64,000 nucleotides of DNA from Microtetraspora sp. NBRC 13810 (lineage in GTDB: Bacteria > Actinomycetota > Actinomycetes > Streptosporangiales > Streptosporangiaceae), in the NCBI RefSeq assembly GCF_030268685.1, contig NZ_BSRQ01000018.1, positions 62,001-126,000 of the forward strand. The letters are read 5' to 3'. A model generated the notes under the pieces. That model saw nothing but the letters and a program-made list of their open reading frames with translations, did no database searches and was not told the DNA's origin. A program made the translations under genes and the position numbers. Below, in pieces: positions 10,637 through 58,863 of the stretch (position 1 is its first letter; each line of letters begins with the position of its first letter).

Positions 10637-10639
10637 CGC

Positions 10640-40953: not shown

Positions 40954-41254
40954 TGACGGTCCCGCCGCTCTTGATGGTGGCGACGAGCTTGTTCACCGCC
41001 GGGTCGCCGATGAAGATCTGGAACGGCACCAGCGGCTTGCCCGGCGCGGTCGCCCTGGCCCGGTCGGCGAGGGCGACGTGGCAGAGCACGACGTCGGCGT
41101 CGGCCGGGATGCGGTCCACCGGGGTGTGCTCCACGGTGACCGAGGAGCCCTTGAGCTGCTTGCGGAGCTGGCCGGCCAGCATGACGCTGCTGCCCATGCC
41201 GGCGTCGCAGGCCACGACGATCTTGTGGATGTCCTTGCTCTCGATGCTGGCCAT
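40946..41254 (-). CDS. PTS EIIB component, mannitol class, 102 aa
   Basis: C16 in VVACDAGMGSS is the phosphocysteine. The ATG at 41254 follows AAGGAGG; an upstream GTG at 41263 is less likely. In many bacteria this domain is fused to EIIC (MtlA); here it is a separate protein. Confidence 0.93.
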   Translation of the reverse strand: MASIESKDIHKIVVACDAGMGSSVMLAGQLRKQLKGSSVTVEHTPVDRIPADADVVLCHVALADRARATAPGKPLVPFQIFIGDPAVNKLVATIKSGGTVNA

Positions 41255-41259
41255 GCCGA

Positions 41260-42501: not shown

Positions 42502-42564
42502 CGATTACTCCTTTTCCGGGGCGCCGGCGCCGTGATGCCGGACGCGGGTGGAACGCGTCGCTGT

Positions 42565-43506: not shown

Positions 43507-44264
43507 GCGCGCACCACCTCCGGTCCCGCCGCGGTCAGCTCCGCGGCGAGCGCCGGGTCCAGACCGGTGTCGCTGATCACCACGTCGATCTCCGCCATGG
43601 AGGCGAAGCGGGCCAGGTAGGTGTTGGTGAACTTGGTGTGGTCGGCCAGCAGCACGCAGCGCTCGGCGGCCCTGACCATCGCCCGCTTGATCGCGGCCTC
43701 GGCCGGATCGGGGGTGGTCAGCCCCTTGGCCACCGAGCAGCCGTTCGCCGCGATGAAGGCGACGTCGGCGTTGAGGTGGGCGAGCGGCTGGAGGGCCCAG
43801 TCGTCCACGGTGGCCAGGGTGCGGCCTCTCACCCGGCCGCCCAGCATGATCACGCTCAGGTTGGGCCGGGCGGCCAGCGCCGTGGCCAGCGGCGGCGAGT
43901 TGACGATGACGGTGAGCTCCCGGTCGGCGGGCAGTATCTGCACCAGGCGGCCGGTGGTCGTGCCCGCGTCGATGATGACCGACCCGTCCTCCGGCAGCTC
44001 CGCCAGCGCCGCCTTGGCGATGCGCTCCTTCTCGGCCGTCATCACCTCGTCCCTGGTGGCGAGCTCGGGCTCGAAGCCCAGCCGCTCCACCGGGATGGCC
44101 CCGCCGTGCACCCGGCGCAGCACCCCGGCGCGCTCCAGGGCGGTGAGGTCGCGACGGATCGTCTCGGTGGTGACGGTGAACTCCTCGGCCAGCGTCACCA
44201 CGTCCACCCGGCCGGCGGTTCGCGCCCGGCGCAGGATCTCCTGCTGTCGCTCCTCGGCGTACAT
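43503..44264 (-). CDS. DeoR-family transcriptional regulator of the PTS operon, 253 aa
   Basis: Winged helix at the N-terminus (VVTLAEEFTVTTETIRRDLTALE, here split by convention at the turn) and a sugar-phosphate-sensing domain with DAGTTTGRL and ADHTKF. It is first in the operon and probably represses it until a phosphorylated sugar binds. The 60 bases upstream are AT-richer with repeated CAAAC/GAAAC words, suitable as operators. Confidence 0.92.
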   Translation of the reverse strand: MYAEERQQEILRRARTAGRVDVVTLAEEFTVTTETIRRDLTALERAGVLRRVHGGAIPVERLGFEPELATRDEVMTAEKERIAKAALAELPEDGSVIIDAGTTTGRLVQILPADRELTVIVNSPPLATALAARPNLSVIMLGGRVRGRTLATVDDWALQPLAHLNADVAFIAANGCSVAKGLTTPDPAEAAIKRAMVRAAERCVLLADHTKFTNTYLARFASMAEIDVVISDTGLDPALAAELTAAGPEVVRA

Positions 44265-44419: not shown

Positions 44420-44440
44420 AGGGCCCCTGAACGGGGCCCT
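44420..44440 (-). terminator. intrinsic terminator of mtnD
   Basis: AGGGCCCC pairs with GGGGCCCT around TGAAC, and on the minus strand a T5 run follows directly. It is the most canonical rho-independent terminator in the window, 70 bp past the mtnD stop. Confidence 0.88.
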
Positions 44441-44510
44441 CTCTCCTGTACGGAGCCGTGTCCGCGGGGTCGCGCGGACGCGCCGCCTCCCCCTGCGCCG
44501 AAGGGTGCCT

Positions 44511-45092
44511 TCAGGCGGCGCGGCGGGCGGTGATGGTGTCGAAGTCGGGGATGCGGGAGGCGATCGAGTCGCCGGTGAAGGCGCCGATCCAGCCGTCGTC
44601 GTCGTGGAAGAAGCGGATGGCGGTGAAGTCGGGGCTGGTGCCCATGTCGAACCAGTGCGTGGTGTTGGCGGGGACGCTCAGCAGGTCGCCCGGCTCGCAC
44701 AGCACGGCGTGCACCTTGCCGCCCACGTGCAGGTAGAAGATGCCGGAGCCGCCGACGAAGAAGCGGACCTCGTCGTCGTCGTGGGTGTGCTCGTTGAGGA
44801 ACTTCTCCCGCGCGGCCTTCGCCCGCTTGGGCCAGTCGGCGCTGTCGTCAGGGTGCAGCTGGGCCACGTCGACGAAGGTGTAGCCTTCCTCCGCGACGAC
44901 CCTGGCCACCTCCTCGCGGTAGGCGTCGAGGATGGTCTCCTGGTCGGCCCCCGTCGCGAGGTCACCGATGACCTCCCAGTGGCGCAGCCGTACCTCGATC
45001 TCCTTGAGTGCGGCCGCGATCTCCTCGGCGTCACCGGTCTCCAGCAGGGTCTCCGGGGTCTCGCCATCCGTGTAAACGGTCAGGTATGTCAT
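44511..45092 (-). CDS. mtnD: acireductone dioxygenase, 193 aa
   Basis: It converts acireductone to 4-methylthio-2-oxobutanoate and formate, the last oxidative step of methionine salvage. The cupin metal set is H102, H104, E108 ([12 protein letters not shown]) and H146 (NTTHWFD). Length is normal. The ATG at 45092 begins [11 protein letters not shown]. It is divergent from the RbsB-type importer operon that ends with mtnK, so the two share a 98-bp promoter region. Confidence 0.95.
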
Positions 45093-45190
45093 ACACCCGA
45101 TTGTCGGTCAGAGGATGACAAGTCGCCAAATCCCCTTATACCCATGGGAAAAGTGGACATTGCGCCCCAAATGGGCCTATCATCCCGGGT

Positions 45191-46291
45191 GTGATTCACG
45201 CAAGACTCCGCGGAACCGTCTTCTTCCTCACGGCCGCTCTCACGCTGGCAGGCTGCTCACAGGGTACGCCCGCCACCAGCACGGCAGCGGCGCCGACCCC
45301 CGCCTCGCCGTCCTCGACCCCCGCCGCCCCGACGGCCGCGGTCCCCGAGCGGTTCGCCAAGGGTGACGTCACCGTGGCGCTCGTGCGGCAGCTCTCCTCC
45401 GGCGACTACTTCGAGCAGTGGCTGGCCGGCGCGAAGGCCGAGGCCCAGGCCCTGAACGTGAAGCTGGACGTCTCCAGCGGCGACGGCAACAACGACAAGC
45501 AGGCGCTCAACCTGGAGCAGGCCGTCAACCAGAAGGCCGACGCGATCATCGTCGACCACGGCTTCGCGCAGACCATGCAGCCCGCGATCAAGAAGGCCGT
45601 GGCGGCGAAGATCCCGGTGGTGGCGTTCGACGTGGATCCCGGCACGCCGGAGGCCGTCGCCCTCGCCCAGGACGACCACAGCATCGCCGAGCAGGCGCTG
45701 AGCTCCCTCAAGGCGGACACCGGCGGCACCGGCGACGTCGTCTACGTCTACGCCGCCGGCTACGCGGCGCTGGACCGGCGCAACGAGACGTGGACGCAGT
45801 TCAAGAAGGACAACCCGGGCATCAAGCAGGTCGCCCAGATCGGCGTGGTCAACAGCTCCACCGCGTCGGCGGTCGCCGACCAGGCCAAGGCGGCCCTCCA
45901 GGCCAACCCGGACGTGAAGGCGATCTTCGCGCCCTACGACGAGTTCGCCAAGGGCGCGGCGCTGGCGGTCAAGGAACTCGGCCTGCAGAGCAAGGTCAAG
46001 ATCTACGGGGCGGACATCTCGACCGCGGACATCGGCGTGATGACCGAGCCCGACAGCCCGTGGGTGGCCACCTCCACCACCGACCCGTCCAACGTGGGAC
46101 GCATCGCCGTCCGCGCCGCCGCGCTGCTGGTCGCGGGCGAGAAGGTGGACCCGCAGCTCAGCGTGCCGCCCGCGCTGGTCACCCAGAAGCAGTTGCGCGA
46201 CGGCGGCATCACCACCATCGACCAGCTCACCCGCGCCGTCCCCGCCCTCCTGACGCCGGACGTCGCACGGGTGCCCTGGGCGACGTCTTGA
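45191..46291 (+). CDS. RbsB-type sugar-binding lipoprotein of an ABC importer, 366 aa
   Basis: The lipobox is LTLAGC after a GTG start at 45191. The periplasmic-binding-protein fold of the ribose/galactose class is evident (VALVRQLSSGDYFEQWLAGA; ADAIIVDHGFAQTMQPAIKK; VVAFDVDPGTPEA; GADISTADIGVM). It is the first gene of a four-gene operon ending with mtnK, so its likely ligand is methylthioribose or a related 5-thio sugar. That ligand is inferred from context only. Confidence 0.88.
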   Translation: MIHARLRGTVFFLTAALTLAGCSQGTPATSTAAAPTPASPSSTPAAPTAAVPERFAKGDVTVALVRQLSSGDYFEQWLAGAKAEAQALNVKLDVSSGDGNNDKQALNLEQAVNQKADAIIVDHGFAQTMQPAIKKAVAAKIPVVAFDVDPGTPEAVALAQDDHSIAEQALSSLKADTGGTGDVVYVYAAGYAALDRRNETWTQFKKDNPGIKQVAQIGVVNSSTASAVADQAKAALQANPDVKAIFAPYDEFAKGAALAVKELGLQSKVKIYGADISTADIGVMTEPDSPWVATSTTDPSNVGRIAVRAAALLVAGEKVDPQLSVPPALVTQKQLRDGGITTIDQLTRAVPALLTPDVARVPWATS

Positions 46292-47892
46292 CCGCCGCCG
46301 CCGAGCCGGTGGTGTCCGTCTCGGGGGTGTCCAAACGGTACGGCGCCACGCTCGCCCTGGACGACGTCACCCTCGACGCCCGTCCCGGCGAGGTCGTCGG
46401 CCTCATCGGCACCAACGGGGCGGGCAAGTCCACCCTGATCAAGGTGCTGTCCGGGGTGACCCGGCCCAGCGCCGGCACGATCCACCTGGCCGGGACGCGG
46501 GCCGAGCCCGCCGGGCCGCTGGAGGCCCAGGCGGCGGGCGTGCAGACCGTGCACCAGAACATCGACGACGGCGTGGTCTTCGGCACCACCGTGGCGGAGA
46601 ACCTGCTGCTGGACTCCTTCGGCAGGCGCCACTCGGGCTGGTTCACCACCCGGGCCAGGATCCGCGCGCGGGCCGCGGAGGTGGCCCGCGCGGTGCGGCT
46701 CGACCTGCCGCTCGACGCCCCGGTGGAGACGCTGCCGGCCAGCGCCAGGCAGCAGATCGTCATCGCCCGCGCGCTGTCCCGGCGGGCCCGGCTGCTCATC
46801 CTGGACGAGCCGACCTCCACGCTGTCCGCGGTGGAGGCGGACGCGCTCATGGCCAGGGTGCGCGAGGCCGCCGCCGGCGGCGTGGCGGTGCTCTACGTCT
46901 CGCACCGGCTCGCCGAGATCGAGGATTTGTGTGACCGCGTCGTGGTGCTCCGCGACGGGCGGGTACGGCGGATCTTCACCGCTCCGCTGGACCGCGCCGC
47001 CATCGTCGAGGCCATGCTCGGCGAGGTCGGCCACGTCTCGGCCGCCGGGCGGGAGACCGCGCCCGGCGGCCGGGGCAGGCCGGTGCTGGAGGCCGAGGGC
47101 GTACGCACGACGGCGGGCGGGCGGCCGTTCGGGCTCGTCGTCCGCGAAGGGGAGGTGCTCGGCGTGACCGGGCTGGTCGGGTCGGGCAAGACGGAACTGC
47201 TCGAACAACTCGGCGGGGCCCGCCCGCTGGTGTCCGGCGAACTGCGGGTGGACGGCCGGCCGTACCGGCCGGGGCACCCGCGGGCGGCCATCGCCGCGGG
47301 CGTCGCCTTCGCCGCCGAGGAACGCTCGGCGCAGGCGATCGTGCCGGGCTGGTCGATCCGCGCGCACGTCACGCTGCCCTGGCTGCGCGCGCACAGCCGC
47401 GCCGGGCTGCTGTCGCGCGGGTCGGAGACGGACTCGGCGCGGCGCGTGGTGGACCTGTTCGGGGTGCGCGGCGCGGGGCGGGCGGCCTCGCCGGACGCCG
47501 CCATCGAGACGCTGTCCGGCGGCAACCAGCAGAAGGTCGTCGTCGGCCGCTGGCTGGAGACCTCGCCCCGGGTGCTGCTCCTCGACGAGCCCTTCCGCGG
47601 GGTGGACGTCGGAGCCCGCGCCGACATCGGCCGGGTGGTGCGGGAGCACGCCGCGGGAATGGCGGTCGTCGTGGCCTCCTCCGACCCGCAGGAGATCGTC
47701 GAACTCGCCGACCGCGTCCTCGTCCTGCACGAGGGCGCCCCCACCGGCGAGCTGCCCGTCGCCGACGTGACGGCCGAACGCCTGGCCGCCCTCATGTCCG
47801 GCGGCACCGACGGCGACCCGCCCCCGCACGACCCGGGGGACGGGACGGACCCGCGGCGCGGCGCCGCGACGGAGCAGGGAGGGGAGCGATGA
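46288..47892 (+). CDS. RbsA-type double ATPase of the importer, 534 aa
   Basis: Two ABC cassettes: the first with GTNGAGKST and ILDEPTSTLSAVE, the second with GLVGSGKTELL, LSGGNQQKVVVGRW and LLDEPFRGVDVG. The first signature motif is degenerate (LPASARQQIVIARAL), as is common in RbsA-like proteins. The start is taken as TTG at 46288, which overlaps the stop of the binding-protein gene (TTGA) and fits the coupling pattern of the operon; GTG at 46309 is the alternative. The C-terminal 30 residues are a Pro/Asp-rich tail. Confidence 0.9.
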   Translation: MTAAAEPVVSVSGVSKRYGATLALDDVTLDARPGEVVGLIGTNGAGKSTLIKVLSGVTRPSAGTIHLAGTRAEPAGPLEAQAAGVQTVHQNIDDGVVFGTTVAENLLLDSFGRRHSGWFTTRARIRARAAEVARAVRLDLPLDAPVETLPASARQQIVIARALSRRARLLILDEPTSTLSAVEADALMARVREAAAGGVAVLYVSHRLAEIEDLCDRVVVLRDGRVRRIFTAPLDRAAIVEAMLGEVGHVSAAGRETAPGGRGRPVLEAEGVRTTAGGRPFGLVVREGEVLGVTGLVGSGKTELLEQLGGARPLVSGELRVDGRPYRPGHPRAAIAAGVAFAAEERSAQAIVPGWSIRAHVTLPWLRAHSRAGLLSRGSETDSARRVVDLFGVRGAGRAASPDAAIETLSGGNQQKVVVGRWLETSPRVLLLDEPFRGVDVGARADIGRVVREHAAGMAVVVASSDPQEIVELADRVLVLHEGAPTGELPVADVTAERLAALMSGGTDGDPPPHDPGDGTDPRRGAATEQGGER

Positions 47893-48947
47893 CGACGACG
47901 CGGGAGGAGACGGCGGGCCCGCCGGGAACGGCGGCACCCGTACGGCGGGCGGTGGCGGAGACCGCGGCCACGGTCGCCTACCGTTACGGGCTGGTCGTCG
48001 TCCTCGTGGTCATGCTGGTGGTGTTCGCCGCGCTGCGACCGGCGTTCGCCACGTACGGCAACGCGCTGATCGTCCTGCAGTCGGTCGCCGTCGTCGGCGT
48101 GGTGGCGCTCGGCGTGACCGTGTCGATGACCACCGGCGGCTTCGACCTGTCCGCCGGCGCCTGTGTCGGCACGGTGGTGATGGTGACCGCCCTGACCATG
48201 GTGCGGTTCAACCTCACCGGCGCCACGGCGATCCTGTTCGGCCTGCTCACCGGGCTGCTGGTGGCCGGGGTCAACGTGCTGCTCACCGTGGTGGCGCGGG
48301 TGCCCGACCTGGTGGCCACGCTGGGCACGATGTTCCTGTTCCAGGGGCTCGCGCTCATCGCCACCTCCGGCCAGTCGGTGTCGGCCGGCATGACCATCGA
48401 CGGCGCGCCCGCGCCCGGCAGGTACACCGAGGGTTTCACCTGGCTGGGCGGTGGCACGATCGCCTCCGTGCCGGTCCCGGTGGTGGTCTTCGCCGTGCTC
48501 GCCGCGGCCGTCTACGTCTTCCTCAACCACACCCGCTGGGGGCGCGCGCTGTACGCGATCGGCGGCAACGCCGAGGCGGCCAGGCTGGCGGGCATCCGGG
48601 TGGGCCGCTACCGGGCGCTGGCCTACGCCGTGTCCGGCGTGTGCGCGGCGGTGGCCGGCATCCTGCTGTCGGCGAGGCTCGGCCGCGGCGACGTGGGCGC
48701 CGGTGACCCGTACCTGCTCCAGTCGGTGGCCGCGGCCCTGATCGGCTTCGCCGTCCTCGGCGCGAACCGGCCCAACGCGGTGGGTACGGTGGTGGGCGCG
48801 CTGTTCATCGGAGTGATGATCAACGGTCTCACGATGCTCAACGCGCCCTACTACGCGCAGACGTTCGTCCAGGGGGCGCTGCTGGTCGGCTCGCTGGTCG
48901 TCAGCTACGCCCTGACCCCCGGGCGAAGAGAAAGGAAGATACGGTGA
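47889..48947 (+). CDS. RbsC-type permease of the importer, 352 aa
   Basis: About ten membrane segments with the family features GVTVSMTTGGFDLSAGACVG and YAIGGNAEAARLAGIRVGRY. The ATG at 47889 overlaps the ATPase stop, and its own stop overlaps the mtnK start (GTGA). Transporter and kinase are thus made together. Confidence 0.92.
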   Translation: MTTTREETAGPPGTAAPVRRAVAETAATVAYRYGLVVVLVVMLVVFAALRPAFATYGNALIVLQSVAVVGVVALGVTVSMTTGGFDLSAGACVGTVVMVTALTMVRFNLTGATAILFGLLTGLLVAGVNVLLTVVARVPDLVATLGTMFLFQGLALIATSGQSVSAGMTIDGAPAPGRYTEGFTWLGGGTIASVPVPVVVFAVLAAAVYVFLNHTRWGRALYAIGGNAEAARLAGIRVGRYRALAYAVSGVCAAVAGILLSARLGRGDVGAGDPYLLQSVAAALIGFAVLGANRPNAVGTVVGALFIGVMINGLTMLNAPYYAQTFVQGALLVGSLVVSYALTPGRRERKIR

Positions 48948-50176
48948 CCGTCACCGTCGGCGCCGGGCAGTCCTACGAACTGCTCACGGTCGAGAACGTG
49001 CCCGACTACATCGCCGGGCGGCCCGCGCTGAGCCGCCTGCTGGACCCCGCGGACATCACCGGGGTCCGCGAGGTCGGCGACGGCAACATGAACCTCGTCT
49101 TCGTGGCCGAGGGGGCCGGCCGGGGGCTCGCCCTCAAGCAGGCGCTGCCGCACGTGCGGGTGGACCCGACGTGGCCGTTCACCCCCGAGCGCAACGCGTT
49201 CGAGGCCCGCGCCCTGCGCGCGCACGGGCGCGTCGCCCCCGGCCTGGTGCCGGAGATCCACGACGAGGACACCGCCAGGCACGTGCTGGCGATCGAGGAC
49301 CTGTCGGACCACCGGGTGTGGCGCGGCCTGCTCAACGAGGGGGTCAGGAACCCGGGCGTGGCCGGCGACCTCGGCAGGTACGTGGCCCGGGTGGCGTTCG
49401 GCACGTCGATCTTCGGGCTCGGCGCCAAGGCGCACAAGGCGGCGCTGGCGGAGGCGGTCAACCCGGAGCTGTGCGAGATCACCGAGGACCTCGTCTACAC
49501 CGAGCCGTACATCACGCACGAGCACAACAGGATCCTGCCCGCCAACCAGGCCGACGTGGCCGGGTACGCGGGCGACCCGGCGGTGCGCTCGGCGATCGGC
49601 ATGGCCAAGATCACGTTCATGACGCACGCCGAGGCGCTCATCCACGGCGACCTGCACACCGGCTCGGTCCTGGTGCGCGCCGCGGAGGACGGCAGGCCGC
49701 GCTCGACCAAGGCGTTCGACCCCGAGTTCGCCTTCTACGGCCCGGTCGGGTTCGACATCGGCGCCCTGTGGGGCAACTACGTGCTCAACGCCGCCCGCGG
49801 TCTCGCGCTCGGCGACACCGGGCACGCCGGCTGGGTGCTCGGCCTGGCCGGGGAGACCTGGCGGGCCTTCGCCGAGGAGTTCGCAGCCCTGTGGCCCGGC
49901 CGCGCCGACCCCCGGGTGTTCGGCTCCGGCGTCATGGAGGGCTACCTGGGCAAGGTGTACGGCGACGCCGTCGCGGCCGGGGCGGCCAAGGCGGCCCGGC
50001 GGGTGATCGGCTTCTCCCGGGTGACCGACATCGAGACGCTGGAGGAGCCGGCCAGGGTCAGGGCGATCCGCGGCGTGCTCGGCGCCGCCCGGTTCCTGCT
50101 GGTGGAGGGCGCGCGGACGCGCGAGCCGGAGGCGCTGTTCGGCCGCGTCGGCGAGATCCTCACCGACGCGGCCTGA
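48944..50176 (+). CDS. mtnK: S-methyl-5-thioribose kinase, 410 aa
   Basis: It phosphorylates methylthioribose at C1. The aminoglycoside-phosphotransferase-like fold shows HGDLHTGSVLV (catalytic loop), DPEFAFYGPVGFDIG (metal-binding loop) and the N-terminal GDGNMNLVFV glycine loop. Residues TPERNAFEARALR and PYITHEHNRILP are typical of MtnK. GTG at 48944 couples it to the permease gene. It converges on mtnB with 18 bases between stops. Confidence 0.94.
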   Translation: MTVTVGAGQSYELLTVENVPDYIAGRPALSRLLDPADITGVREVGDGNMNLVFVAEGAGRGLALKQALPHVRVDPTWPFTPERNAFEARALRAHGRVAPGLVPEIHDEDTARHVLAIEDLSDHRVWRGLLNEGVRNPGVAGDLGRYVARVAFGTSIFGLGAKAHKAALAEAVNPELCEITEDLVYTEPYITHEHNRILPANQADVAGYAGDPAVRSAIGMAKITFMTHAEALIHGDLHTGSVLVRAAEDGRPRSTKAFDPEFAFYGPVGFDIGALWGNYVLNAARGLALGDTGHAGWVLGLAGETWRAFAEEFAALWPGRADPRVFGSGVMEGYLGKVYGDAVAAGAAKAARRVIGFSRVTDIETLEEPARVRAIRGVLGAARFLLVEGARTREPEALFGRVGEILTDAA

Positions 50177-50184
50177 ACGCCCGG

Positions 50185-50218
50185 TCCTACGCCCTCACCT
50201 GGTGGCGAGGGCGTAGGA
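50185..50218. terminator. shared hairpin between convergent mtnK and mtnB
   Basis: TCCTACGCCCTC (50185-50196) pairs perfectly with GAGGGCGTAGGA (50207-50218). The mtnB stop codon (50195-50197) is inside the structure, so the last codons of mtnB form one arm. It can end transcription from both sides. Confidence 0.75.
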
Positions 50219-50818
50219 CAGCAGCCACTCCACGCACTCGGTGACGTGCCGGGCCCGCTTCAGGTCCGAGCCCCACGTGTACAGGCCGTGTGAGGCCACG
50301 ATGACGGCCGGGGTGCGCGGGTCGTAGGCGGCCTCGAACCGGTCGCCCAGTTCGGCCATGTCCTGGCTGTTGCCGATCACCGGGATGACCACCTCGTCGT
50401 CGTGCGCGAGGCGGCCGATGCCCTTCAGCGTCTCCACGTCGCGCAGCCGTACGCCGTCCGGCCAGTGGTGGCCCGCCACGACGGCGCTCAGCGCGTGCAC
50501 GTGCACGACCGCGTCGGCGCCGGTCAGGTCGGCCACCCGGGCGTGCAGCCCCGCCTCGGCGGAGGGGACGAGCGGTGCCACCCCGTCCACCGGGGCGGGC
50601 CGCCCGGCCGCGTCGACCACGGCCACGTCGGAGGCGGCCAGCTCGCCCTTGTCCAGGCCGCTGGCGGTGACGGCGAGGCGCAGCGGGTCGCGGGCGACGA
50701 CCTCCGACAGGTTGCCCGACGTGCCGCGCATCCAGCCGAAACCGGTGAACCGGGCCGACTCCGCGGCCAGCCTCTCGCCGGCCAGCAGGATGCGCCCGGC
50801 GGTGAGCGGGTGAGTCAC
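50195..50818 (-). CDS. mtnB: methylthioribulose-1-phosphate dehydratase (class II aldolase fold), 207 aa
   Basis: It dehydrates methylthioribulose-1-phosphate to the diketo compound. The class II aldolase zinc site is HVHALSAVVAGHHW with a further His in ASHGLYTWG. GWMRGTSGNLSEVV is the phosphate-binding start typical of MtnB. GTG at 50818 overlaps the mtnC stop. Length normal. Confidence 0.94.
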   Translation of the reverse strand: MTHPLTAGRILLAGERLAAESARFTGFGWMRGTSGNLSEVVARDPLRLAVTASGLDKGELAASDVAVVDAAGRPAPVDGVAPLVPSAEAGLHARVADLTGADAVVHVHALSAVVAGHHWPDGVRLRDVETLKGIGRLAHDDEVVIPVIGNSQDMAELGDRFEAAYDPRTPAVIVASHGLYTWGSDLKRARHVTECVEWLLSYALATR

Positions 50819-51486
50819 TTGATCTCCTCGAAGGACGCGATGACGGGATGGGCGCCGAAGTCGGCGTCCGCGCTGGGCTCGCCGGGACGCCGGACGCCGG
50901 TCGTCCGCCAGCCCGCCGCGGCGGCCGCGTCCAGCTCGGCCGGCACGTCGGACAGGAAGAGCAGCCCGGCGGGCGGGCCGAGCGTCTCGGCGATCCTGAG
51001 ATAGGAGGCGGGCTCCCGCTTGGGGCCGGCGTTGACCGTGTCGAAGTGGTGCTCGACCAGGACCGACAGGTCGCCGGCCGTACTGTGCCTGAACCAGGGA
51101 CGCTGGCTCGCCACCGAGCCGGAGGAGAACACCGCGAGGCGCCGCCCCTGCGCGTGCCAGGCCCGCAGCACCGGCGCGACGTCGGGGAAGAAATGCGCGG
51201 TGAGCTCCCCGGCGGCGAACCCGGCCGCCCAGATCTGCCCCTGGAGCGTCTTCAGCGGCGTCGCCTTGACGTCGCCGTCCATCCAGCCGTGCAGGATCGC
51301 GACGGTCTCCGCGGTGGTCGCCCCGCCCGTCTGGCGCACGGCCTCGCGCACGTCCGGGTCGTCGGGGTGCGCGTCGATCCACGGGCCCAGCCGGGGCCGG
51401 GCGTAGGAGTAGAGCCCCACGTGCACGGACTCGGTCGAACTCGTCGTGCCTTCGATGTCCAGCACGACCCACGAAGGGGACGTCAT
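50815..51486 (-). CDS. mtnC: enolase-phosphatase E1 (HAD family), 223 aa
   Basis: It enolises and dephosphorylates diketo-methylthiopentyl-1-phosphate to acireductone. The HAD motif is VVLDIEGTTSS (D10, E12), motif II VFSSGSVASQRPWF, then KREPASYLRIAE and LFLSDVPAELDAA. D-x-E in place of D-x-D is usual for MtnC. ATG at 51486 overlaps the nucleoside hydrolase stop. Confidence 0.95.
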   Translation of the reverse strand: MTSPSWVVLDIEGTTSSTESVHVGLYSYARPRLGPWIDAHPDDPDVREAVRQTGGATTAETVAILHGWMDGDVKATPLKTLQGQIWAAGFAAGELTAHFFPDVAPVLRAWHAQGRRLAVFSSGSVASQRPWFRHSTAGDLSVLVEHHFDTVNAGPKREPASYLRIAETLGPPAGLLFLSDVPAELDAAAAAGWRTTGVRRPGEPSADADFGAHPVIASFEEIK

Positions 51487-52439
51487 CGGGACAGCACCTC
51501 CACGAAATCGGTCACGAAACGCCAGGAGTCGACGGCGGTGATCACCCGGGTGTCCGGCGCCGGTTCGTACCGGAAGGCCGGCGGCAGCCCGTCGAAGGTG
51601 CGCATCAGCCGCGCCCTGGCCATGAAGCCGTTGCTCACCACGTTGACCGGGCCGTCGGTCCAGGCGGTGGCGAAGCCCGGGTCGAGCAGGATGCCGGCCG
51701 CCAGCGGGTCGTGCAGCGGGATGATCCGGCGGCCCCACTCATTCTGGTAGAAGTCCAGGTAGGCGTCGAGGATCTCGGTCGCGAAGCGCGCCTTCGGGGT
51801 GCCGGCCGCGCGCAGGGCCGCGATCGCCTTCTCGTCCAGGATGGTCGTCCCGGTGACGTTCACCCCGACCATCACCAGCTCGTTGCGCGGCGCGGCGAAC
51901 ACAGCGCGGGCCGCCTCCGCGTCGTTGTTGATGTTGGCGTCCACCATGAGGGACGTGCCGGGCGGGCCGTACGGTCCCGAGCCGCCCATCAGCACGACCG
52001 AGCGGTACTTCGTGAACAGTCCGGGGTCGATGCGCAGGGCCAGGCCCAGGTTGGTCAGCGGGCCGAGCGCCAGCAGGTCCAGCTCGCCCGGCCGCTCGGC
52101 GGCCAGCCGTACCAGCATCTCCGCGCCGCTCTCCCCGGTGACCTCGGGCAGCGGGCGGTCATAGCCCATGTCGCCCAGGCCGTCCTTGCCGTGCACGTAA
52201 CCGGCGATGCGCGGGCTCCCGGTGAGCGGCGCGGCGGCGCCCCTGGCCACCGGCACGTCCAGGCCGAGCAGCCGGTTGACGTAGCCGATGTTGCGGGTCG
52301 CGTCCTCCTCGACGCAGTTGCCGTAGACCGAGGTGATCGCGACGATCTCGGCGTCCGGCCGTCCCGCGAGGTAGAGCAGCGTGTGTGCGTCGTCCACGCC
52401 GGTGTCGGTGTCGACGACGACGTGTCGGATCTGGCTCAA
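51483..52439 (-). CDS. inosine-uridine-preferring-type nucleoside hydrolase, 318 aa
   Basis: The calcium-binding N-terminus VVVDTDTGVDDAHTLLYL and the ALGPLTNLGLAL and PLHDPLAAGILL segments define the IUNH family, which splits nucleosides into base and ribose. The start is TTG at 52439, overlapping the mtnA stop (TTGA), with AAGGAG eight bases upstream. No methylthioadenosine nucleosidase or phosphorylase gene is in the window, and this hydrolase sits between mtnA and mtnC. It is therefore the candidate enzyme releasing methylthioribose from methylthioadenosine, or it handles imported nucleosides. Confidence 0.9.
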   Translation of the reverse strand: MSQIRHVVVDTDTGVDDAHTLLYLAGRPDAEIVAITSVYGNCVEEDATRNIGYVNRLLGLDVPVARGAAAPLTGSPRIAGYVHGKDGLGDMGYDRPLPEVTGESGAEMLVRLAAERPGELDLLALGPLTNLGLALRIDPGLFTKYRSVVLMGGSGPYGPPGTSLMVDANINNDAEAARAVFAAPRNELVMVGVNVTGTTILDEKAIAALRAAGTPKARFATEILDAYLDFYQNEWGRRIIPLHDPLAAGILLDPGFATAWTDGPVNVVSNGFMARARLMRTFDGLPPAFRYEPAPDTRVITAVDSWRFVTDFVEVLSR

Positions 52440-53452
52440 AGAAGGCTCTCCTTGACTTGTCCTGGCTGGTAGACGCCGTTCTCGGTGACGATCGCGGTGA
52501 CGAGGCGCGGCGGCGTCGTGTCGAAGGCGGGGTAGTAGCCGGTGACGCCCGGCGCGGCGGTGCGCGTCCCGAGGACGTGCAGCACCTCGTCGCCGTCGCG
52601 GTGTTCGATCACCACGTCGGCCGCGGTCGGCGCGAGCGGGTCGGGGGCCTGCACCAGCGCGTAGTACGGCACGCCGAAGGCGGAGGCGGCCAGCGCCACG
52701 CCGAGCGTGCCCACCTTGTTGATCACATGCCCGTCCAGGGTCACCCGGTCGGCCGCGGTCAGCGTCACGTCGGCGATCCCGTCGGCCAGCGCCGCCGCGA
52801 CCATCCCGTCGGTGATCAGGGTGGGCGTGTACCCCATCTCCACCAGGGTGGCCGCGGTGAGCCGGGCGCCCTGCAGGTAGGGGCGGGTCTCGGTGCACAC
52901 GAAGGACAGGCGCCTGCCCGCCTCCTGCGCCGCCCGCACGGTCGCTATCAGGTAGGCGTCCGCCCAGCAGTGCGTGAGCACCCGCGCGCCGTCCGGAAGC
53001 AGCGACGCCGCGTGCCCGCCGAGGGCCGCGCTGCGCGCCCAGTACGCCGCGTCGTGCCCGGCCGCCGCCTCCGCCACCGCCTCCGCCAGTTCCTCGCCCG
53101 CGGCCTCGGCCAGCGGACCGTCCGCGGTGGCGGCGAGGATCGCGTGCACGGCGTCGCGGATGTGGTTGTTCGTCGGCCGGGTGGCGATCAGCCGCTCGCC
53201 GGCCGCGCGCAGCCGAGCGGCTGCCCGGCCGGGCGGCTCGTGCCTGCCCTCCCTGGCGGCGAGCGTCATGCCGGCCGTGGTGGCGAAGAGCGGCCCGGAG
53301 CTCTGCGTGACCATCTGCTCGATGGCCGTCGCGACCTCCTCACTGGTGGCGCAGCGCACCCAGCGCACCTCGAAGGGGTAGACGCGGCGGTCGAGGATCT
53401 CCACCGCGTCGCCGGCCATCCGTACCGAGTCGGCCAGGGCCGGGGTGTTCAT
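52436..53452 (-). CDS. mtnA: S-methyl-5-thioribose-1-phosphate isomerase, 338 aa
   Basis: It isomerises methylthioribose-1-phosphate to methylthioribulose-1-phosphate. The IF2B-like fold has the catalytic C162 (VLTHCWADAYL, equivalent to Cys160 of Bacillus MtnA) and D235 (AADRVTLDGHVINKVGT). RPTNNHIRDAV and CTETRPYLQGARL are family motifs. The related ribose-1,5-bisphosphate isomerases are excluded by context. The ATG at 53452 overlaps the permease stop. Confidence 0.93.
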   Translation of the reverse strand: MNTPALADSVRMAGDAVEILDRRVYPFEVRWVRCATSEEVATAIEQMVTQSSGPLFATTAGMTLAAREGRHEPPGRAAARLRAAGERLIATRPTNNHIRDAVHAILAATADGPLAEAAGEELAEAVAEAAAGHDAAYWARSAALGGHAASLLPDGARVLTHCWADAYLIATVRAAQEAGRRLSFVCTETRPYLQGARLTAATLVEMGYTPTLITDGMVAAALADGIADVTLTAADRVTLDGHVINKVGTLGVALAASAFGVPYYALVQAPDPLAPTAADVVIEHRDGDEVLHVLGTRTAAPGVTGYYPAFDTTPPRLVTAIVTENGVYQPGQVKESLL

Positions 53453-54342
53453 CGTGCCTCCACTGTCTGCCGCCGCCTGCCCGCCGCGCCGGCGACGACC
53501 AGGGCGAGCAGCGTGATCACATAGGGTGCCGCGTCCGCCGCCTGCTGCGGCAGCCCGGCACCCTGCAGGCGGAAGCCGAACGCCTCCGCCGCGCCGAAGA
53601 GCAGGCAGGCCAGCAGCACCCGGTAGGGTCGCGAGCCGCCCAGCATGACCGCCACGACGGCCACCCAACCGCGCCCGGCGCTCATGCCCTCGCTGAAGAG
53701 GGTCACGTTGCCCAGGGCGAGCTGCGCCCCGGCGAGCCCGCAGAGCGCGCCGGCGGCGAGCACCACCCCGTGCCGGTAGACGCCGACCCGCAGGCCGAGG
53801 GACTCGGCGGCGTCCGCGTGCTGCCCGATGCCGCGCAGCCGCAGCCCGGCCCGGGTCCGCTTCAGCCACAGCGCCACCGCGACCACCAGTGCGAGCGTCA
53901 CCGGCACCAGCGGCGACTGGGAGCCGAGCACCGGCACGTCCAGGCCGAGGTCGGCGAGGGTGGGCAGGCCGCGCAGGTCGGGGGAGGTGTAGGTGCCGCC
54001 GACGCCGAAGACCTGCCGCATCAGGAACGCGGTCAGCCCGAGCGCCAGCAGGTTCATGCCCACCGCGACCACCACCGGGTCGGCCCGGAAGGTCACCGCC
54101 GACACCGACAGGATGGCCGAGTAGAGCACGGTGGCGAGCACGCCGCCCAGCACGCCCAGCCACGCGCTGCCGGTGAGGTAGCTGAACACCACCGCCGTGA
54201 ACGCCCCCCACAGCAACTGGCCCTCCAGCGCCATGTTGAACACGCCGGACACCGAGCTGAGCAGCCCGCCCAGCGCGGCGAGCACGACGGGCGCGGTGGC
54301 GGTCAGCACCGCGGCGAAGAACGTCGCCTCGAAGATGTTCAC
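53449..54342 (-). CDS. nucleoside-type ABC permease 2 (NupQ/YufQ-like), 297 aa
   Basis: About eight membrane helices and the family stretch LLSSVSGVFNMALEGQLLWGAF. It pairs with the permease at 54339-55553 in a BMP-type importer. GTG at 54342 overlaps the upstream stop, and its stop overlaps the mtnA start (ATGA). Confidence 0.92.
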   Translation of the reverse strand: MNIFEATFFAAVLTATAPVVLAALGGLLSSVSGVFNMALEGQLLWGAFTAVVFSYLTGSAWLGVLGGVLATVLYSAILSVSAVTFRADPVVVAVGMNLLALGLTAFLMRQVFGVGGTYTSPDLRGLPTLADLGLDVPVLGSQSPLVPVTLALVVAVALWLKRTRAGLRLRGIGQHADAAESLGLRVGVYRHGVVLAAGALCGLAGAQLALGNVTLFSEGMSAGRGWVAVVAVMLGGSRPYRVLLACLLFGAAEAFGFRLQGAGLPQQAADAAPYVITLLALVVAGAAGRRRQTVEAR

Positions 54343-55553
54343 GCGCCCGCCTCCGTTCTGGCGTTCCGTCTCCGCCGGACGTGCCGCACCGTCGCGAACA
54401 CGGCGACGATCACGATGATGAGCCCCTGCACGATCTGGGTGAGCTGGCTCGGCACGCCCGCGTCGCGTTCCATGCCCGGCCCGCCCGCCGACAGGATCGT
54501 CAGCAGCGCGACGGTGAAGGGCACCGCCACCGGCCGCCCGGTGGCCAGCAGCACCGCCGCGATGGCGGTGAAGGTGTAGCCGGGCGCGGTCAGCGCGCCG
54601 TCCACGAACCGGTACGGCGGGCCGAGCACGATCAGCGCGCCCACCAGGCCGGCGAACGCGCCGCCCCCGGCGAGCGTCACCGCGGCCAGCCGGTTCACCG
54701 CGACCCCGCCGTACCGGGCGAACTCCCGGTTGGAACCGGTGGCCCGGATCTCGTAGCCGAGCACGCCGCGGGCGTCGGCGAGCAGCCAGGCGGCGGTGAG
54801 CAGCGCGATCAGCGGCAGCCCGAGCGTGACGTACTCGCTGCCCGCGAGGGCCGGCAGGTGCGCCGCGTCGGGCAGCGTGGGCGTCTGCGCGTTGCCGGTG
54901 CCCTGCTCGGCGAGCGGGAAGCGCACCAGGTAGGACGCGAGGGCCACGGCCGGGGTGCTGACCAGCAGCGTCGTCACGATGGCCGGGACGCCGAGCCGGG
55001 TGCGCAGCGGCGCGGAGATCCCCGCGACCAGCGCGCCGGTGAGCGCGGCGGCCACCAGCGGCAGCAGCACGCCGAGCCCGGCGGGCAGCGTCACGTTCAG
55101 GGCGAGCGCCGCCGCGACGACGCCGCCGAGCGCCATCTGGCCGTCCCCGCCCAGGTTGAACTCCCCGGCCCGCAACGGGATCGCGAACGCCAGCGCCATG
55201 CCCAGCGTCGGGACGAACGCCGCGATCGTGTACTCCAGGTTGCCGTCGTACAGCGCGCCCCTGACCAGCGCGGGGTAGGCCAGCGCCGGGTCCACGCCGA
55301 CGGCCAGCATGACCAGCGTGGTCAGCACGAGCGCCCCGGCGACCGCGAGCACGGCGGGCGCGAGCACGATCCGCCCCGCGAGCGCCACCACCGCGCCGGC
55401 CCCCCGCCGCCCCGGCACGGGGCCGTCCACGCCGCGCCCGTCCACCTCGCGCCCGTCCGTGTGGTGCTCGTTCGCGTCGCGCCCGTCCGCGTGCTGCCCG
55501 TTCGCGTGCTGCCCGTTCGCGTCGTGCCCGTCCACCGTCGGCCCGCCGCTCAC
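54339..55553 (-). CDS. nucleoside-type ABC permease 1 (NupP/YufP-like) with repetitive N-terminus, 404 aa
   Basis: The membrane part (about 50-395) has the family segment LRAGEFNLGGDGQMALGGVV and RATGSNREFARYGGV. Residues 8-42 are seven copies of a five-residue unit (DGHDA, NGQHA, NGQHA, DGRDA and variants), a His/Asp-rich cytoplasmic tail not usual in the family. GTG at 55553 overlaps the ATPase stop. It works with permease 2, the double ATPase and the BMP lipoprotein. Confidence 0.9.
   Translation of the reverse strand: MSGGPTVDGHDANGQHANGQHADGRDANEHHTDGREVDGRGVDGPVPGRRGAGAVVALAGRIVLAPAVLAVAGALVLTTLVMLAVGVDPALAYPALVRGALYDGNLEYTIAAFVPTLGMALAFAIPLRAGEFNLGGDGQMALGGVVAAALALNVTLPAGLGVLLPLVAAALTGALVAGISAPLRTRLGVPAIVTTLLVSTPAVALASYLVRFPLAEQGTGNAQTPTLPDAAHLPALAGSEYVTLGLPLIALLTAAWLLADARGVLGYEIRATGSNREFARYGGVAVNRLAAVTLAGGGAFAGLVGALIVLGPPYRFVDGALTAPGYTFTAIAAVLLATGRPVAVPFTVALLTILSAGGPGMERDAGVPSQLTQIVQGLIIVIVAVFATVRHVRRRRNARTEAGA
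55428..55532 (-). repeat. 15-bp tandem repeat, seven copies, at the permease 1 N-terminus
   Basis: Each 15-bp unit encodes (D/N)-G-x-x-x with His, Asp or Arg; two adjacent units encode identical NGQHA. The array begins seven codons after the start codon and keeps the reading frame. Confidence 0.8.
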
Positions 55554-57127
55554 GAGGCCGCCCCGGAGGTGCCGCCGGTCGTGGTTCCGGACGCGCCGCC
55601 GGTCGTGGCTCCCGTCATGGCGGCGCCGAGGCGTTCGTCGCCGGCCTCCTCGCCGGTGATCTCGGCGACCACCCGGCCCTCGAACATCACCAGCACCCGG
55701 TCGGCGAGCGCGCGCAGCTCGGTCAGCTCGCTGGACTGGAGCAGCACCGCCTGCCCCTGGTCGCGGGCGTCGGCGATGAGCGCGTGGATCTGCTCCTGCG
55801 CGCCCACGTCCACGCCCTGGGTGGGCTCCTCGACCACGATCACCGGCGTCCCCCTGGACAGCTCGCGGGCCAGCACGGCCTTCTGGGCGTTGCCGCCGGA
55901 CAGGCTGGAGATCGGATCGGAGACGGAGGCGGCGCGGATGGAGAAGCGCTCGGTGAGCGTCCTGGCCCGCTCGCGGACGGCCGAGGCGGACAGGCCGAGC
56001 CGCCCGCGCAGGGCGGGGGTCCGCTGGTCGCCCATGATGAGGTTCTCGGCCAGCGACATGCCGGGCGAGGTCGCCCTGCCGCGCCGGTCCTCCGGCACGT
56101 ACGCCACGGCGGGATGCCGGCCGCGCCGTACCGGGGCGCCGGACAGCAGCACCTCGCCGGAGTCGCCGCGTCCAGGGCCGCGCAGGCCGGTGACCGTGTC
56201 GAGCAGCTCGCGCTGGCCGCTGCCGGCCACGCCCGCGATGCCGACGATCTCGCCCGGCCGCACGCCGAAGGACACCCCGTCCAGCCGCGGCACCCCGTCG
56301 CGGTCCCGCACCCGCAGGTCGCGCACCTCCAGCGCGTACGGCCCGTCCGCCGGCGGCCGGGTGGCCCGGCGGGGCGTGGCGGGGCCGAGGGATCGGCCGA
56401 TCATGGCCATGACCAGCTCGTCCGCCGTGGTGGTCGCGGTGTCGAAGCGGCCGGTGACCCGGCCGCGGCGCAGCACGGTGACCCGGTCGCCGGCCGCGAG
56501 CACCTCGGTCAGCTTGTGCGTGACCAGCACGACCGAGGCGCCGGTGGCGGTGACCGTGCGCAGCACGTCGAACAGCCGGGTCGCCTCGCCCGGCGTGAGC
56601 ACGGCGGTCGGCTCGTCCAGGATGAGCACCTCGGCCCGCCGGTAGAGCGCCTTGAGGATCTCCACCCGCTGCCGGATCCCGACCGGCAGGCCGTCGATCC
56701 GCGCGTCCGGGTCGGCGCGCAGGCCGTAGAGGTCGCCGAGCCGCTCGACCTCGCGGCGCGCCGCGGCCAGGTCGAGCACGCCGCCCCTGGTGGGCTCGGC
56801 GCCGATCACCACGTTCTCGGCGACGGTCAGCTCGGGGAAGAGGCGGAAGTGCTGGTGGACCATGCCGAGCCCGTGCGAGATGGCGTCGGCGGGGGAGCGC
56901 AGCCGGATCCTGGCGCCGTTGCGCGCGACGTGCCCGGCGTCGGGGCGGTGCAGGCCGTACAGGATGGACATCAGGGTGGACTTGCCCGCCCCGTTCTCGC
57001 CCACGACGGCGTGGATCTCGCCCTTGGCGATCGCCAGGTCGATCCCGTCGTTCGCCACGACGGGACCGAACCTCTTGGAGACGCCCACCAGCTCGGCGGC
57101 CGGGGGCTCGGCGGGGGAGACCGCCAC
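55550..57127 (-). CDS. nucleoside-type double ABC ATPase (NupO/YufO-like), 525 aa
   Basis: Two nucleotide-binding domains: GENGAGKSTLM with LILDEPTAVLTPGE, and GVAGSGQRELL with LSGGNAQKAVLARELSRG. The second Walker A is degenerate (GSGQRE), normal for this group. GTG at 57127 is two bases after the BMP gene stop. Confidence 0.92.
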   Translation of the reverse strand: MAVSPAEPPAAELVGVSKRFGPVVANDGIDLAIAKGEIHAVVGENGAGKSTLMSILYGLHRPDAGHVARNGARIRLRSPADAISHGLGMVHQHFRLFPELTVAENVVIGAEPTRGGVLDLAAARREVERLGDLYGLRADPDARIDGLPVGIRQRVEILKALYRRAEVLILDEPTAVLTPGEATRLFDVLRTVTATGASVVLVTHKLTEVLAAGDRVTVLRRGRVTGRFDTATTTADELVMAMIGRSLGPATPRRATRPPADGPYALEVRDLRVRDRDGVPRLDGVSFGVRPGEIVGIAGVAGSGQRELLDTVTGLRGPGRGDSGEVLLSGAPVRRGRHPAVAYVPEDRRGRATSPGMSLAENLIMGDQRTPALRGRLGLSASAVRERARTLTERFSIRAASVSDPISSLSGGNAQKAVLARELSRGTPVIVVEEPTQGVDVGAQEQIHALIADARDQGQAVLLQSSELTELRALADRVLVMFEGRVVAEITGEEAGDERLGAAMTGATTGGASGTTTGGTSGAAS

Positions 57128-57129
57128 GG

Positions 57130-58155
57130 CTAGCCCGCCAGCGGGTCGGCGACAGTGATCTTGCCGGCCACGATGTCGTCGCGGACCTGCTTGACCTTGG
57201 CCTGCAGGTCGACGTCGCCCGCCGTGGTGCACTGGGAGGAGGAGAAGTCCGCCTGCAGGGCGCCGACGCCGACGCCGTCCTCGGCCAGGCCGTAGACCTT
57301 GACGCCGCCCGTCTTGCCGGCCGCGATCTCCTTGATGGCCGCGATCTCGGCGACGTCCACGCGCTTGAGGACGTTGTCGATGACGTTGCCCGGGCTCTGC
57401 GGGCACTGGTCCACGTCCACGCCGATGGCCTTGACCTTGCCCGCCGCGGCCGCCTCGAACACGCCCTGGTTGCCGGCCGAGGCCGCCGCCGTGATCACGT
57501 CGGCGCCGCGCCCGATCAGGGTCTGCGCCTGGGACTTGGCCCGCGCCGGGTCGCTGAACGGGTTGCTGCCGCCGACGAACAGCGAGGTGCCCCGCACGTC
57601 CGGCCGGACGGACTTGGCGCCCTCGAAGAACGGCTCGATCCAGCGGTGGACGAACGGCGTGTCCTGCGCGGCCACGACGCCGATCTGCCCGCTCCTGGTG
57701 AGCAGCCCGGCCTCCACGCCGGCGAGGTAGGCCGCCTCGTGCTCCTTGAACGACACGCAGGCGAGGTTTGGCGCCTGGTCCTTGGCGCAGGAGTCCACCT
57801 GGAGGAACTGCTGGCCGGGGTGCTGCTTGGGCACGGTGGCGAAGACGTCGTCGAAGGAGAAGCTGATGCCGACGATGATCGTGGGCTTGGCCCGGACCGC
57901 GGCGTCGACGTTCTGCGCGATGCTGGTGGGATCCTTGCTCTCGTACAGCTTGAAGGACGCGCCGATCTCCTTGGCGGCGGCCTCCGCGCCCTTGACGCCG
58001 AGCTGGAGGAAGCTGTTGGTGCCGACCGGGTTCGGGGTGATGAAGATGACCGACTTGCTCGGTGCGGCCTGGGCGCCGTCCGCCGCCGGCTCGCCGCCGC
58101 AGGCCGTCAGGGTGAGGGCCGAGACGAGTACGGCCAGCGCAGGGGTGATTCGCAT
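57130..58155 (-). CDS. BMP-family nucleoside-binding lipoprotein, 341 aa
   Basis: The lipobox LTLTAC and the BMP/Med fold (SKSVIFITPNPVGTNSFLQL; SFKEHEAAYLAGVEAGL; GIGVVAAQDTPF-like stretch QIGVVAAQDTPFVHRW) are clear. BMP proteins bind nucleosides, so this importer likely takes up methylthioadenosine or other nucleosides for the hydrolase and the mtn enzymes encoded downstream. The ATG at 58155 begins the eight-gene operon. Confidence 0.92.
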   Translation of the reverse strand: MRITPALAVLVSALTLTACGGEPAADGAQAAPSKSVIFITPNPVGTNSFLQLGVKGAEAAAKEIGASFKLYESKDPTSIAQNVDAAVRAKPTIIVGISFSFDDVFATVPKQHPGQQFLQVDSCAKDQAPNLACVSFKEHEAAYLAGVEAGLLTRSGQIGVVAAQDTPFVHRWIEPFFEGAKSVRPDVRGTSLFVGGSNPFSDPARAKSQAQTLIGRGADVITAAASAGNQGVFEAAAAGKVKAIGVDVDQCPQSPGNVIDNVLKRVDVAEIAAIKEIAAGKTGGVKVYGLAEDGVGVGALQADFSSSQCTTAGDVDLQAKVKQVRDDIVAGKITVADPLAG

Positions 58156-58184
58156 GATGTGGTCTGTCCTTACGAAACGGCTAA

Positions 58185-58220
58185 TCCCACCAGATGGGAC
58201 GAAAGCCCAGAATACTGGGC
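58185..58220. promoter_or_regulatory. two inverted repeats between the BMP operon and the cupin gene
   Basis: TCCCA-N5-TGGGA (58185-58199) and GCCCAG-AATA-CTGGGC (58205-58220) share CCCA...TGGG arms, and their centres are about 20 bp apart, two helical turns. They lie in the 117-bp divergent promoter region and are candidate operators for the salvage operon. Confidence 0.55.
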
Positions 58221-58272
58221 GTAAGCATATATCTACTCATTTCCTACTCGGGTGCCAGGTTTGGAGTGCCAC

Positions 58273-58725
58273 ATGACGAACGATCTCCCCGAGGACCCCT
58301 TCCACCGGCGGCTGCACCACATCGCGCCCTCCGGGCTGAGCGGTGAGACGGCCCAGTCCTCCGGCATGGAACGGCGCGCGGCGATCAGCGGCGCCACCGT
58401 CGGATCCCGGCGGCTGTGGATGGGACAGGCCCACGTCGCGCCCGGCACCGTCTCCGCCGACCACCACCACGGCGACTCCGAGACCGCCATCTACGTCGTC
58501 AGCGGCAACCCGTCGTTCGTCTTCCTCGACGTGGACGCCGACGAGCCCCGCGAGGTGCGGATCACCGCCAAACCGGGCGACTACATCTTCGTGCCGCCCT
58601 TCGTGCCGCACCGCGAGGAGAACACCGACCCCGACGAGGAGGCGGTCGTGGTCGTCGCGCGCAGCACCCAGGAGGCCATCGTGGTCAACCTCGACGGGCT
58701 GCGCTGGGGGCCCACCGGCGGCTGA
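58273..58725 (+). CDS. cupin-domain protein, 150 aa
   Basis: One cupin barrel with metal-binding residues in ADHHHGDSETAIYVVSG and VPPFVPHREEN. GGAG lies seven bases before the ATG at 58273; a GTG at 58252 is an alternative. It is divergent from the BMP/mtn operon and may share its control; the substrate is unknown. It is not an acireductone dioxygenase by motif. Confidence 0.8.
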   Translation: MTNDLPEDPFHRRLHHIAPSGLSGETAQSSGMERRAAISGATVGSRRLWMGQAHVAPGTVSADHHHGDSETAIYVVSGNPSFVFLDVDADEPREVRITAKPGDYIFVPPFVPHREENTDPDEEAVVVVARSTQEAIVVNLDGLRWGPTGG

Positions 58726-58775
58726 CCGGGGACGCCGCCGCTGCTCAGCGGCGTGCCGCGGTGTTGCACGCCCCC

Positions 58776-58794
58776 CGTGACAGCCCGTGTCACG
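58776..58794. promoter_or_regulatory. inverted repeat upstream of the Dpp-type operon
   Basis: CGTGACA-N5-TGTCACG is a perfect 7+7 inverted repeat 70 bp before the binding-protein start. It follows a small ACGCCGC/GCGGCGT hairpin after the cupin gene. A candidate operator. Confidence 0.45.
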
Positions 58795-58863
58795 CGTGCG
58801 TCCTACCGTTTACCAAGGCCACAATGGTCGGCCTGCCCCCGAGTTCCTGGAGACACGACCTCG

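Follow-up and report, generated by a model that had tools for sequence, protein, structure and literature searches.

Why should the enzymes of methionine salvage, normally described as a means of recycling internal 5'-methylthioadenosine (MTA), be encoded side by side with two importers and a nucleoside hydrolase? This question is raised by a cluster of 13 genes in Microtetraspora sp. NBRC 13810, whose genome comprises 9.0 Mb in 114 contigs. The cluster lies at positions 44511-58155 of the window, by which the whole stretch of DNA analysed is meant (64,000 nucleotides, C18:62001-126000). In our opinion, it is best read as a two-entry system of uptake and salvage, by which external 5-methylthio compounds would be converted into methionine; a probability of about 0.62 is given to this scheme as a whole. 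The evidence that carries it was drawn from the sequences and consists of gene content, coupling and conservation of the cluster, a binding protein of the 5-methylthioribose (MTR) type and an altered ribose pocket in the hydrolase.

Gene content and organization of the cluster

Gene bounds were obtained from lists of open reading frames (ORFs) and their translations, and identities from Pfam and NCBIfam. The cluster consists of mtnD, an RbsBAC-type importer followed by mtnK, and the row bmp-nupA-permease-permease-mtnA-hydrolase-mtnC-mtnB. Three directions of transcription are found: mtnD stands alone on the minus strand, the genes of the binding protein, RbsA, RbsC and MtnK follow on the plus strand, and the operon from bmp to mtnB is on the minus strand. 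A gap of 98 bp separates mtnD from the divergent binding-protein gene (sbpB), and the convergent mtnK and mtnB are spaced by 18 bp. Elsewhere the genes are packed tightly, with an overlap of 7 bp between sbpB and rbsA, a spacing of 2 bp between nupA and bmp and overlaps of 4 bp at the eight other junctions, permease/mtnA, mtnA/hydrolase and hydrolase/mtnC among them. Since most junctions overlap by 4 bp, the coupling of importers with enzymes may be regarded as real. An earlier note, prepared from the letters of this DNA, had named the same five mtn genes, a nucleoside hydrolase and two complete ATP-binding cassette (ABC) importers, and had described enzymes and importers as translationally tied; Pfam, NCBIfam and the ORFs bear this out, with mtnD standing apart. 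It was also right that the terminal transaminase is missing, as neither a transaminase nor MtnN or MtnP was found among the 13 genes.

Three of the salvage enzymes exceed their NCBIfam cut-offs, namely S-methyl-5-thioribose kinase MtnK (48944-50176, plus strand; TIGR01767, 342.7 bits against 275), methylthioribulose-1-phosphate dehydratase MtnB (50195-50818, minus strand; TIGR03328, 159.6 bits against 137) and the acireductone synthase, or enolase-phosphatase, MtnC (50815-51486, minus strand; TIGR01691, 194.4 bits against 128). Acireductone dioxygenase (ARD) MtnD (44511-45092, minus strand) matches PF03079 with E 4e-31, above the Pfam ARD cut-off, and the metal-site motifs HxHxxxE and TTHWF were read in its sequence. 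The methylthioribose-1-phosphate isomerase MtnA (52436-53452, minus strand) is divergent: it is above the Pfam IF-2B cut-off (PF01008, E 7.5e-48) and scores 269.8 bits against 271 for PRK05720 and 203.7 against 279 for TIGR00512. Its nearest solved relatives are true MtnA proteins and the catalytic Cys and Asp are retained; its activity is the least certain among the cluster enzymes.

A second MtnA, canonical-looking, is encoded on contig C3. MtnC and MtnD are single-copy in the genome and MtnB has one copy above the cut-off, all three being in the cluster. Four PF01048 matches were assigned by reading their sequences as MtnP-like, PunA-like and two fused proteins; no MtnN was recognisable among these four, which were read without a family scan.

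The search for the same gene set in other actinomycetes, suggested by the earlier note, returned the arrangement from about 30 genomes of the order, a recurrence for which chance cannot account. Within Streptosporangiaceae the unit is conserved, and relatives of it occur in Geodermatophilaceae, Jiangella and Microbacteriaceae. MtnK above the cut-off was found in 34 of 347 genomes of the order and in 10 of 297 genomes sampled across the class. Neighbourhoods around 40 MtnK genes were fetched and mapped, which gives 41 mtnK loci with the window, and 23 of them (the window counted) have the two importers, the hydrolase and the complete set of five mtn genes. A scan of named genomes made with the hydrolase alignment revealed units of the 13-gene type also in Planotetraspora, Microbispora, Nonomuraea, Herbidospora, Acrocarpospora, Streptosporangium, Sphaerisporangium, Thermocatellispora and Actinoallomurus, and related units in Blastococcus, Trujillonella, Jiangella, Naasia and Cryobacterium. 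In one locus, matching Streptosporangium saharense, mtnC and the hydrolase gene are separated by a gene whose product, judged by eye, is a TnpB-like transposon protein (L042:14154-15140).

The probable methylthioribose importer

The first entry is the more firmly supported. The top match in PDB of the RbsB-like lipoprotein (45191-46291, plus strand; PF13407) is 4ry8 (E 2.3e-68), an entry titled 5-methylthioribose transporter solute binding protein TLET_1677. An AlphaFold model built from 27 orthologues (mean predicted local distance difference test score, pLDDT, 86.8) was superposed on 4ry8 with Z 41.8 and 40% identity over 315 residues, followed by the Yersinia protein 5ulb with Z 38.3 and by other sugar-binding proteins from Z 32.2 down. 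The 5ulb protein may itself be the MtrB of the mtrACB system, which for Yersinia, among other genera, was proposed to be an MTR transporter linked to mtn genes (PMC3228920). The lipoprotein is accompanied by an RbsA-type two-domain ATPase (46285-47892, plus strand; two PF00005 stretches, NCBIfam sugar ATPases) and an RbsC-type permease (47889-48947, plus strand; PF02653, E 3e-39), and the importer is linked to mtnK by the 4-bp overlap of rbsC and mtnK in a conserved arrangement. As the binding protein falls in the same sequence clade as a protein titled as an MTR transporter component and is 40% identical to it, the RbsBAC-type system is very probably an importer of MTR.

The nucleoside hydrolase

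The second entry depends on the hydrolase (51483-52439, minus strand; PF01156, E 9e-66), which by its fold is an inosine-uridine (IU) nucleoside hydrolase of structural group I (model pLDDT 93.9; Z 44 to the plant purine-type ZmNRh2b) and thus is outside PF01048, the family of MtnN. In comparison with CfNH, it has kept the Ca-binding DxDxxxDD motif, Asn39, His82, Asn168, Tyr225, Tyr229, His241 and Asp242, but Asn160 is replaced by Gly and Glu166 by Asp, so that the Asn160/Glu166 ribose pocket by which IU hydrolases of group I are recognised is lacking. The same Gly/Asp pair was found in all 68 relatives (L073-L140), a count partly selected for Asp166, since the scan motif contained this residue; Gly160 was outside the motif. 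All 68 retain DxDxxxDD, Asn39, His82 and Asp242; His241 and the two Tyr are likewise retained, with few exceptions. Among 49 background hydrolases of the class Gly/Asp was absent, Asn/Glu was present in 37 and Glu166 in 46, and the two other IU hydrolases of the source genome have Asn/Glu in the ribose pocket. The closest relative of the window enzyme is from Planotetraspora (86%). A second hydrolase in Sphaerisporangium fuscum is more divergent and is adjoined by an mtnA of its own (L102:9998-11002).

The ribose cavity of RihC is lined by the equivalent Asn and Glu (PMC10778931), and in 19 of 19 structures surveyed the 5'-OH side chain is bound by the known nucleoside hydrolases (PMC12648331), which barely turn over 5'-deoxy substrates (PMC8910321). 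Promiscuous activity on 5'-fluoro-5'-deoxyadenosine was reported for the T. vivax enzyme (cited in PMC7408626). Two Tyr in helix 8 are a mark of purine activity in these enzymes (PMC8910321). A purine hydrolase deprived of its contacts to the 5'-OH would fit MTA as a substrate, and the cluster hydrolase is predicted, with fair probability, to cleave MTA. No report of an MTA-active IU hydrolase as a natural function was found in the open-licence literature searched.

The BMP/Nup-type importer and its link with the hydrolase

A complete BMP/PnrA-Nup importer is encoded in the same operon and comprises a BMP/PnrA-type lipoprotein (57130-58155, minus strand; PF02608, E 4.5e-42), the Nup/RbsA-type two-domain ATPase NupA (55550-57127, minus strand; two PF00005 stretches) and the BPD_transp_2 permeases 1 (54339-55553, minus strand) and 2 (53449-54342, minus strand), both of PF02653. 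The PDB relatives of the lipoprotein, for which MTA (purine nucleoside) binding is predicted, include T. pallidum TmpC. On balance, MTA is the favoured ligand of this importer, somewhat less confidently than it is the favoured substrate of the hydrolase; the open-licence literature searched gave no report of MTA uptake.

The importer and the hydrolase go together. Both were found in 28 of the 41 mtnK loci and neither in 11, with one exception each way (relatedness not corrected); in one of the exceptions, L034, the hydrolase lies just beyond the fetched stretch, as is shown by L098 of the same contig. An extra mtnK starts inside the 3' end of the hydrolase gene, with an overlap of 4-8 bp, in Blastococcus, Trujillonella, Jiangella and Sphaerisporangium, and in two further loci mtnK follows the hydrolase gene at 77-104 bp according to automatic start calls. 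In most Microbacteriaceae the bmp-nup-hydrolase unit is separate from the mtn genes. MtnK is nevertheless encoded in all 23 checked genomes with this Microbacteriaceae module or its near relatives (L100, L101, L103, L105-L111, L113-L116, L120, L121, L124, L125, L132, L139 and others of that clade); the baseline for MtnK above the cut-off is 10/297 in the class and 34/347 in the order. In ten fetched Microbacteriaceae examples, mtnD, the row binding protein-RbsA-RbsC-mtnK and the row mtnB-mtnC-(mtnK2)-mtnA are located elsewhere without the hydrolase, and the set is complete in most of them.

Proposed scheme

The substrates, the direction of transport and the physiology of the cluster are what we infer from these data. 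MTR would enter by the RbsBAC-type importer and be phosphorylated by MtnK, while MTA would enter by the BMP/Nup-type importer and be split in the cytoplasm into adenine and MTR by the cluster hydrolase, which would replace MtnN and supply the same MtnK. The free MTR on which MtnK depends must be either imported or released by the hydrolase. MTR-1-phosphate would then be converted by MtnA, MtnB, MtnC and MtnD into 2-keto-4-methylthiobutyrate, and methionine would be made by an unlinked aminotransferase; general aminotransferases can perform the final transamination (PMC3228920). Internal MTA presumably takes another way, through the separate MtnP and the canonical MtnA to the MtnB, MtnC and MtnD of the cluster, which, as these three occur only here, would also finish internal recycling. 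It is rather likely that actinobacteria have evolved an MTA-specific hydrolase of the IU family, unrelated to MtnN and MtnP, together with a dedicated MTA importer, so that two parallel entries converge on MtnK.

The scavenging of external methylthio-sugars or nucleosides as sources of sulfur and carbon, put forward in the earlier note, is thus retained in part. For MTR it is well supported by the likeness to 4ry8, and for MTA it is plausible in view of the BMP/Nup importer and the hydrolase. The enzyme set is a full route to methionine, which supports a role as a source of sulfur, methionine and adenine; no support is found for a carbon source, methionine being the end product.

Several points weigh against this scheme. 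The Gly/Asp signature is also present in genomes of Frigoribacterium, Subtercola, Microbacterium and Mycetocola, mostly without MtnK and with other neighbours of the hydrolase gene, and therefore the signature alone is no proof of MTA and the subfamily serves at least one other function. Cluster MtnA is without the canonical IRGAPA loop, and the stretch after its catalytic Cys is deleted. The co-occurrence counts are uncorrected for relatedness, and the argument on the substrate presupposes that Asn160 and Glu166 hold O5' specifically in the CfNH structures.

Strict tracking of MtnK by Gly160/Asp166 was rejected, as one subclade is without MtnK. In L125 a Gly160/Asp166 hydrolase adjoins an adenosine deaminase and an NMT1-type binding protein, in a genome that has MtnK; in L130 and L136 it adjoins an acyl-CoA dehydrogenase-like protein, and in L130 also a luciferase-like monooxygenase, both genomes being without MtnK. 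Most genomes in the subclades of these three loci are without MtnK, and hydrolases of their kind possibly act on another 5'-modified nucleoside.

Alternative explanations

If only the RbsBAC-MtnK part served methylthio compounds, the BMP/Nup importer and the hydrolase would be an ordinary system for scavenging purine or a broad range of nucleosides for bases and ribose, merely co-located with MTR uptake. Such importers, like IU hydrolases, usually serve nucleosides, the purine-type tyrosines and the closest solved relatives, plant purine/pyrimidine hydrolases, agree with this, and the module is unlinked to mtn genes in most Microbacteriaceae. However, no ribokinase or nucleoside kinase is found alongside it, MtnK is present in the genomes bearing it, the hydrolase gene overlaps mtnK in several genera, and the ribose pocket is altered throughout the subfamily but not in the two other hydrolases of the genome. 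We consider this explanation unlikely, although it is the strongest of the three weighed here. An altered pocket would suit any 5'-modified nucleoside, and thus the cluster might handle 5-deoxyribose and 5'-deoxyadenosine, the waste of radical S-adenosylmethionine (SAM) enzymes, alone or together with MTR and MTA, in the manner of the dihydroxyacetone phosphate (DHAP) shunt. Enzymes of the MtnK/MtnA type from E. coli use both 5-deoxyribose and MTR (PMC12632272), and the cluster MtnA is divergent. This is less probable still, given that the class II aldolase-family protein scores above the cut-off as an MtnB dehydratase, that conservation of the cluster extends to MtnC and MtnD, enzymes without a part in the DHAP shunt, and that the binding protein is nearest to an MTR-binding structure, 4ry8.

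The importers could also mainly retrieve MTR and MTA leaked by the cell itself, the cluster then being a device of internal recycling rather than of foraging. Export of MTR is known in other bacteria (PMC3228920, PMC6302742), and the confinement of MtnB, MtnC and MtnD to the cluster would agree with such a function. But the MtnP of this genome yields MTR-1-phosphate directly, bypassing free MTR, and as MtnN is not recognisable, little leakage of MTR is expected, which makes this explanation very improbable.

Regulatory elements and surrounding genes

A promoter-like element TGGACA-N18-TATCAT (45154-45183, plus strand), similar to those in many orthologous mtnD-sbpB gaps, stops 7 bp short of the GTG with which sbpB starts, and for this reason the transcript may be leaderless. 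Upstream of bmp a promoter/operator-like element, GTAGGAAATGAGTAGATATATGCT (58224-58247, minus strand), is conserved across orthologues. It has a single copy in the genome at ≤3 mismatches; a wider regulon was rejected on this ground, and for the same reason the regulator cannot be deduced from the element. GTAGGA/TCCTAC is enriched in both promoter regions (45093-45190 and 58224-58247) across orthologues, which are a set of related sequences. Rfam, at gathering thresholds, gave no riboswitch match within the cluster or close to it. In the gaps of orthologous loci no transaminase-like ORF was seen by eye, the gap ORFs being read without a family-library search; a GntR-like regulator was seen, also by eye, in the gap of one locus, L065.

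On the left the cluster adjoins a fructose-type operon (40946-44264) with a DeoR regulator, 1-phosphofructokinase and phosphotransferase system (PTS) IIB, and on the right, divergent from bmp, genes of a cupin protein and a peptide/nickel-type ABC importer (58255-63856). Elsewhere in the window a cobalamin riboswitch (RF00174, 87.6 bits; 10431-10648) precedes the gene at 10783-12996, and four successive tRNA genes occupy 2324-2707 on the minus strand.

Significance and comparison with known systems

As many organisms give off MTA and MTR, soil actinobacteria with this cluster could take reduced sulfur and adenine from their neighbours. If the scheme is true, a third, unrelated enzyme family for MTA cleavage is added, and the importer is maybe the first dedicated to MTA in bacteria, none having been found in the open-licence literature searched. 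In dozens of genomes the signature would also correct annotations such as "inosine-uridine hydrolase", "ribose importer" and "B6/nucleoside importer".

The coupling of importers to salvage, contrasted in the earlier note with the recycling of internal MTA, is itself not new. In enterobacteria mtrACB is linked to mtnKADCBE, and a probable MTR transporter is known in Bacillus cereus (PMC3228920). As in the window, a CUT2-type ABC importer is tied there to methionine salvage entered through MtnK, but neither a second importer nor a nucleoside hydrolase is described (PMC3228920), and regulation is by MetJ or a SAM riboswitch, neither of which was recognised at the window cluster. The novelty of the window cluster lies in a second entry branch, in which a BMP/Nup importer and an altered IU hydrolase are paired with MtnK. 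TLET_1677 of Thermotoga lettingae (4RY8) shares fold and family with the RbsB-like protein of the window, whose ligand is predicted.

In E. coli the DHAP shunt operon consists of mtnK, mtnA, ald2 and a putative transporter, and external MTA is used as carbon (PMC12632272, PMC10986504). The entry through MtnK and MtnA is common to both systems, and the shunt allows growth on external MTA and 5-deoxypentoses; its MTA is cleaved by Pfs/MtnN. Because the aldolase Ald2 replaces MtnB, MtnC and MtnD, the shunt gives carbon and not methionine, whereas the window cluster contains MtnB, MtnC and MtnD and so differs from a shunt, which is marked by an Ald2-type aldolase without MtnC and MtnD. The reaction proposed for the cluster hydrolase, MTA to MTR and adenine, is that of MtnN (PF01048), from which it differs in belonging to the unrelated PF01156. 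With CfNH, ZmNRh2b and RihA/B/C it shares the fold, the Ca-binding DxDxxxDD and the catalytic residues, but these enzymes have Asn160/Glu166, in place of which the window hydrolase has Gly/Asp and a preceding loop two residues longer.

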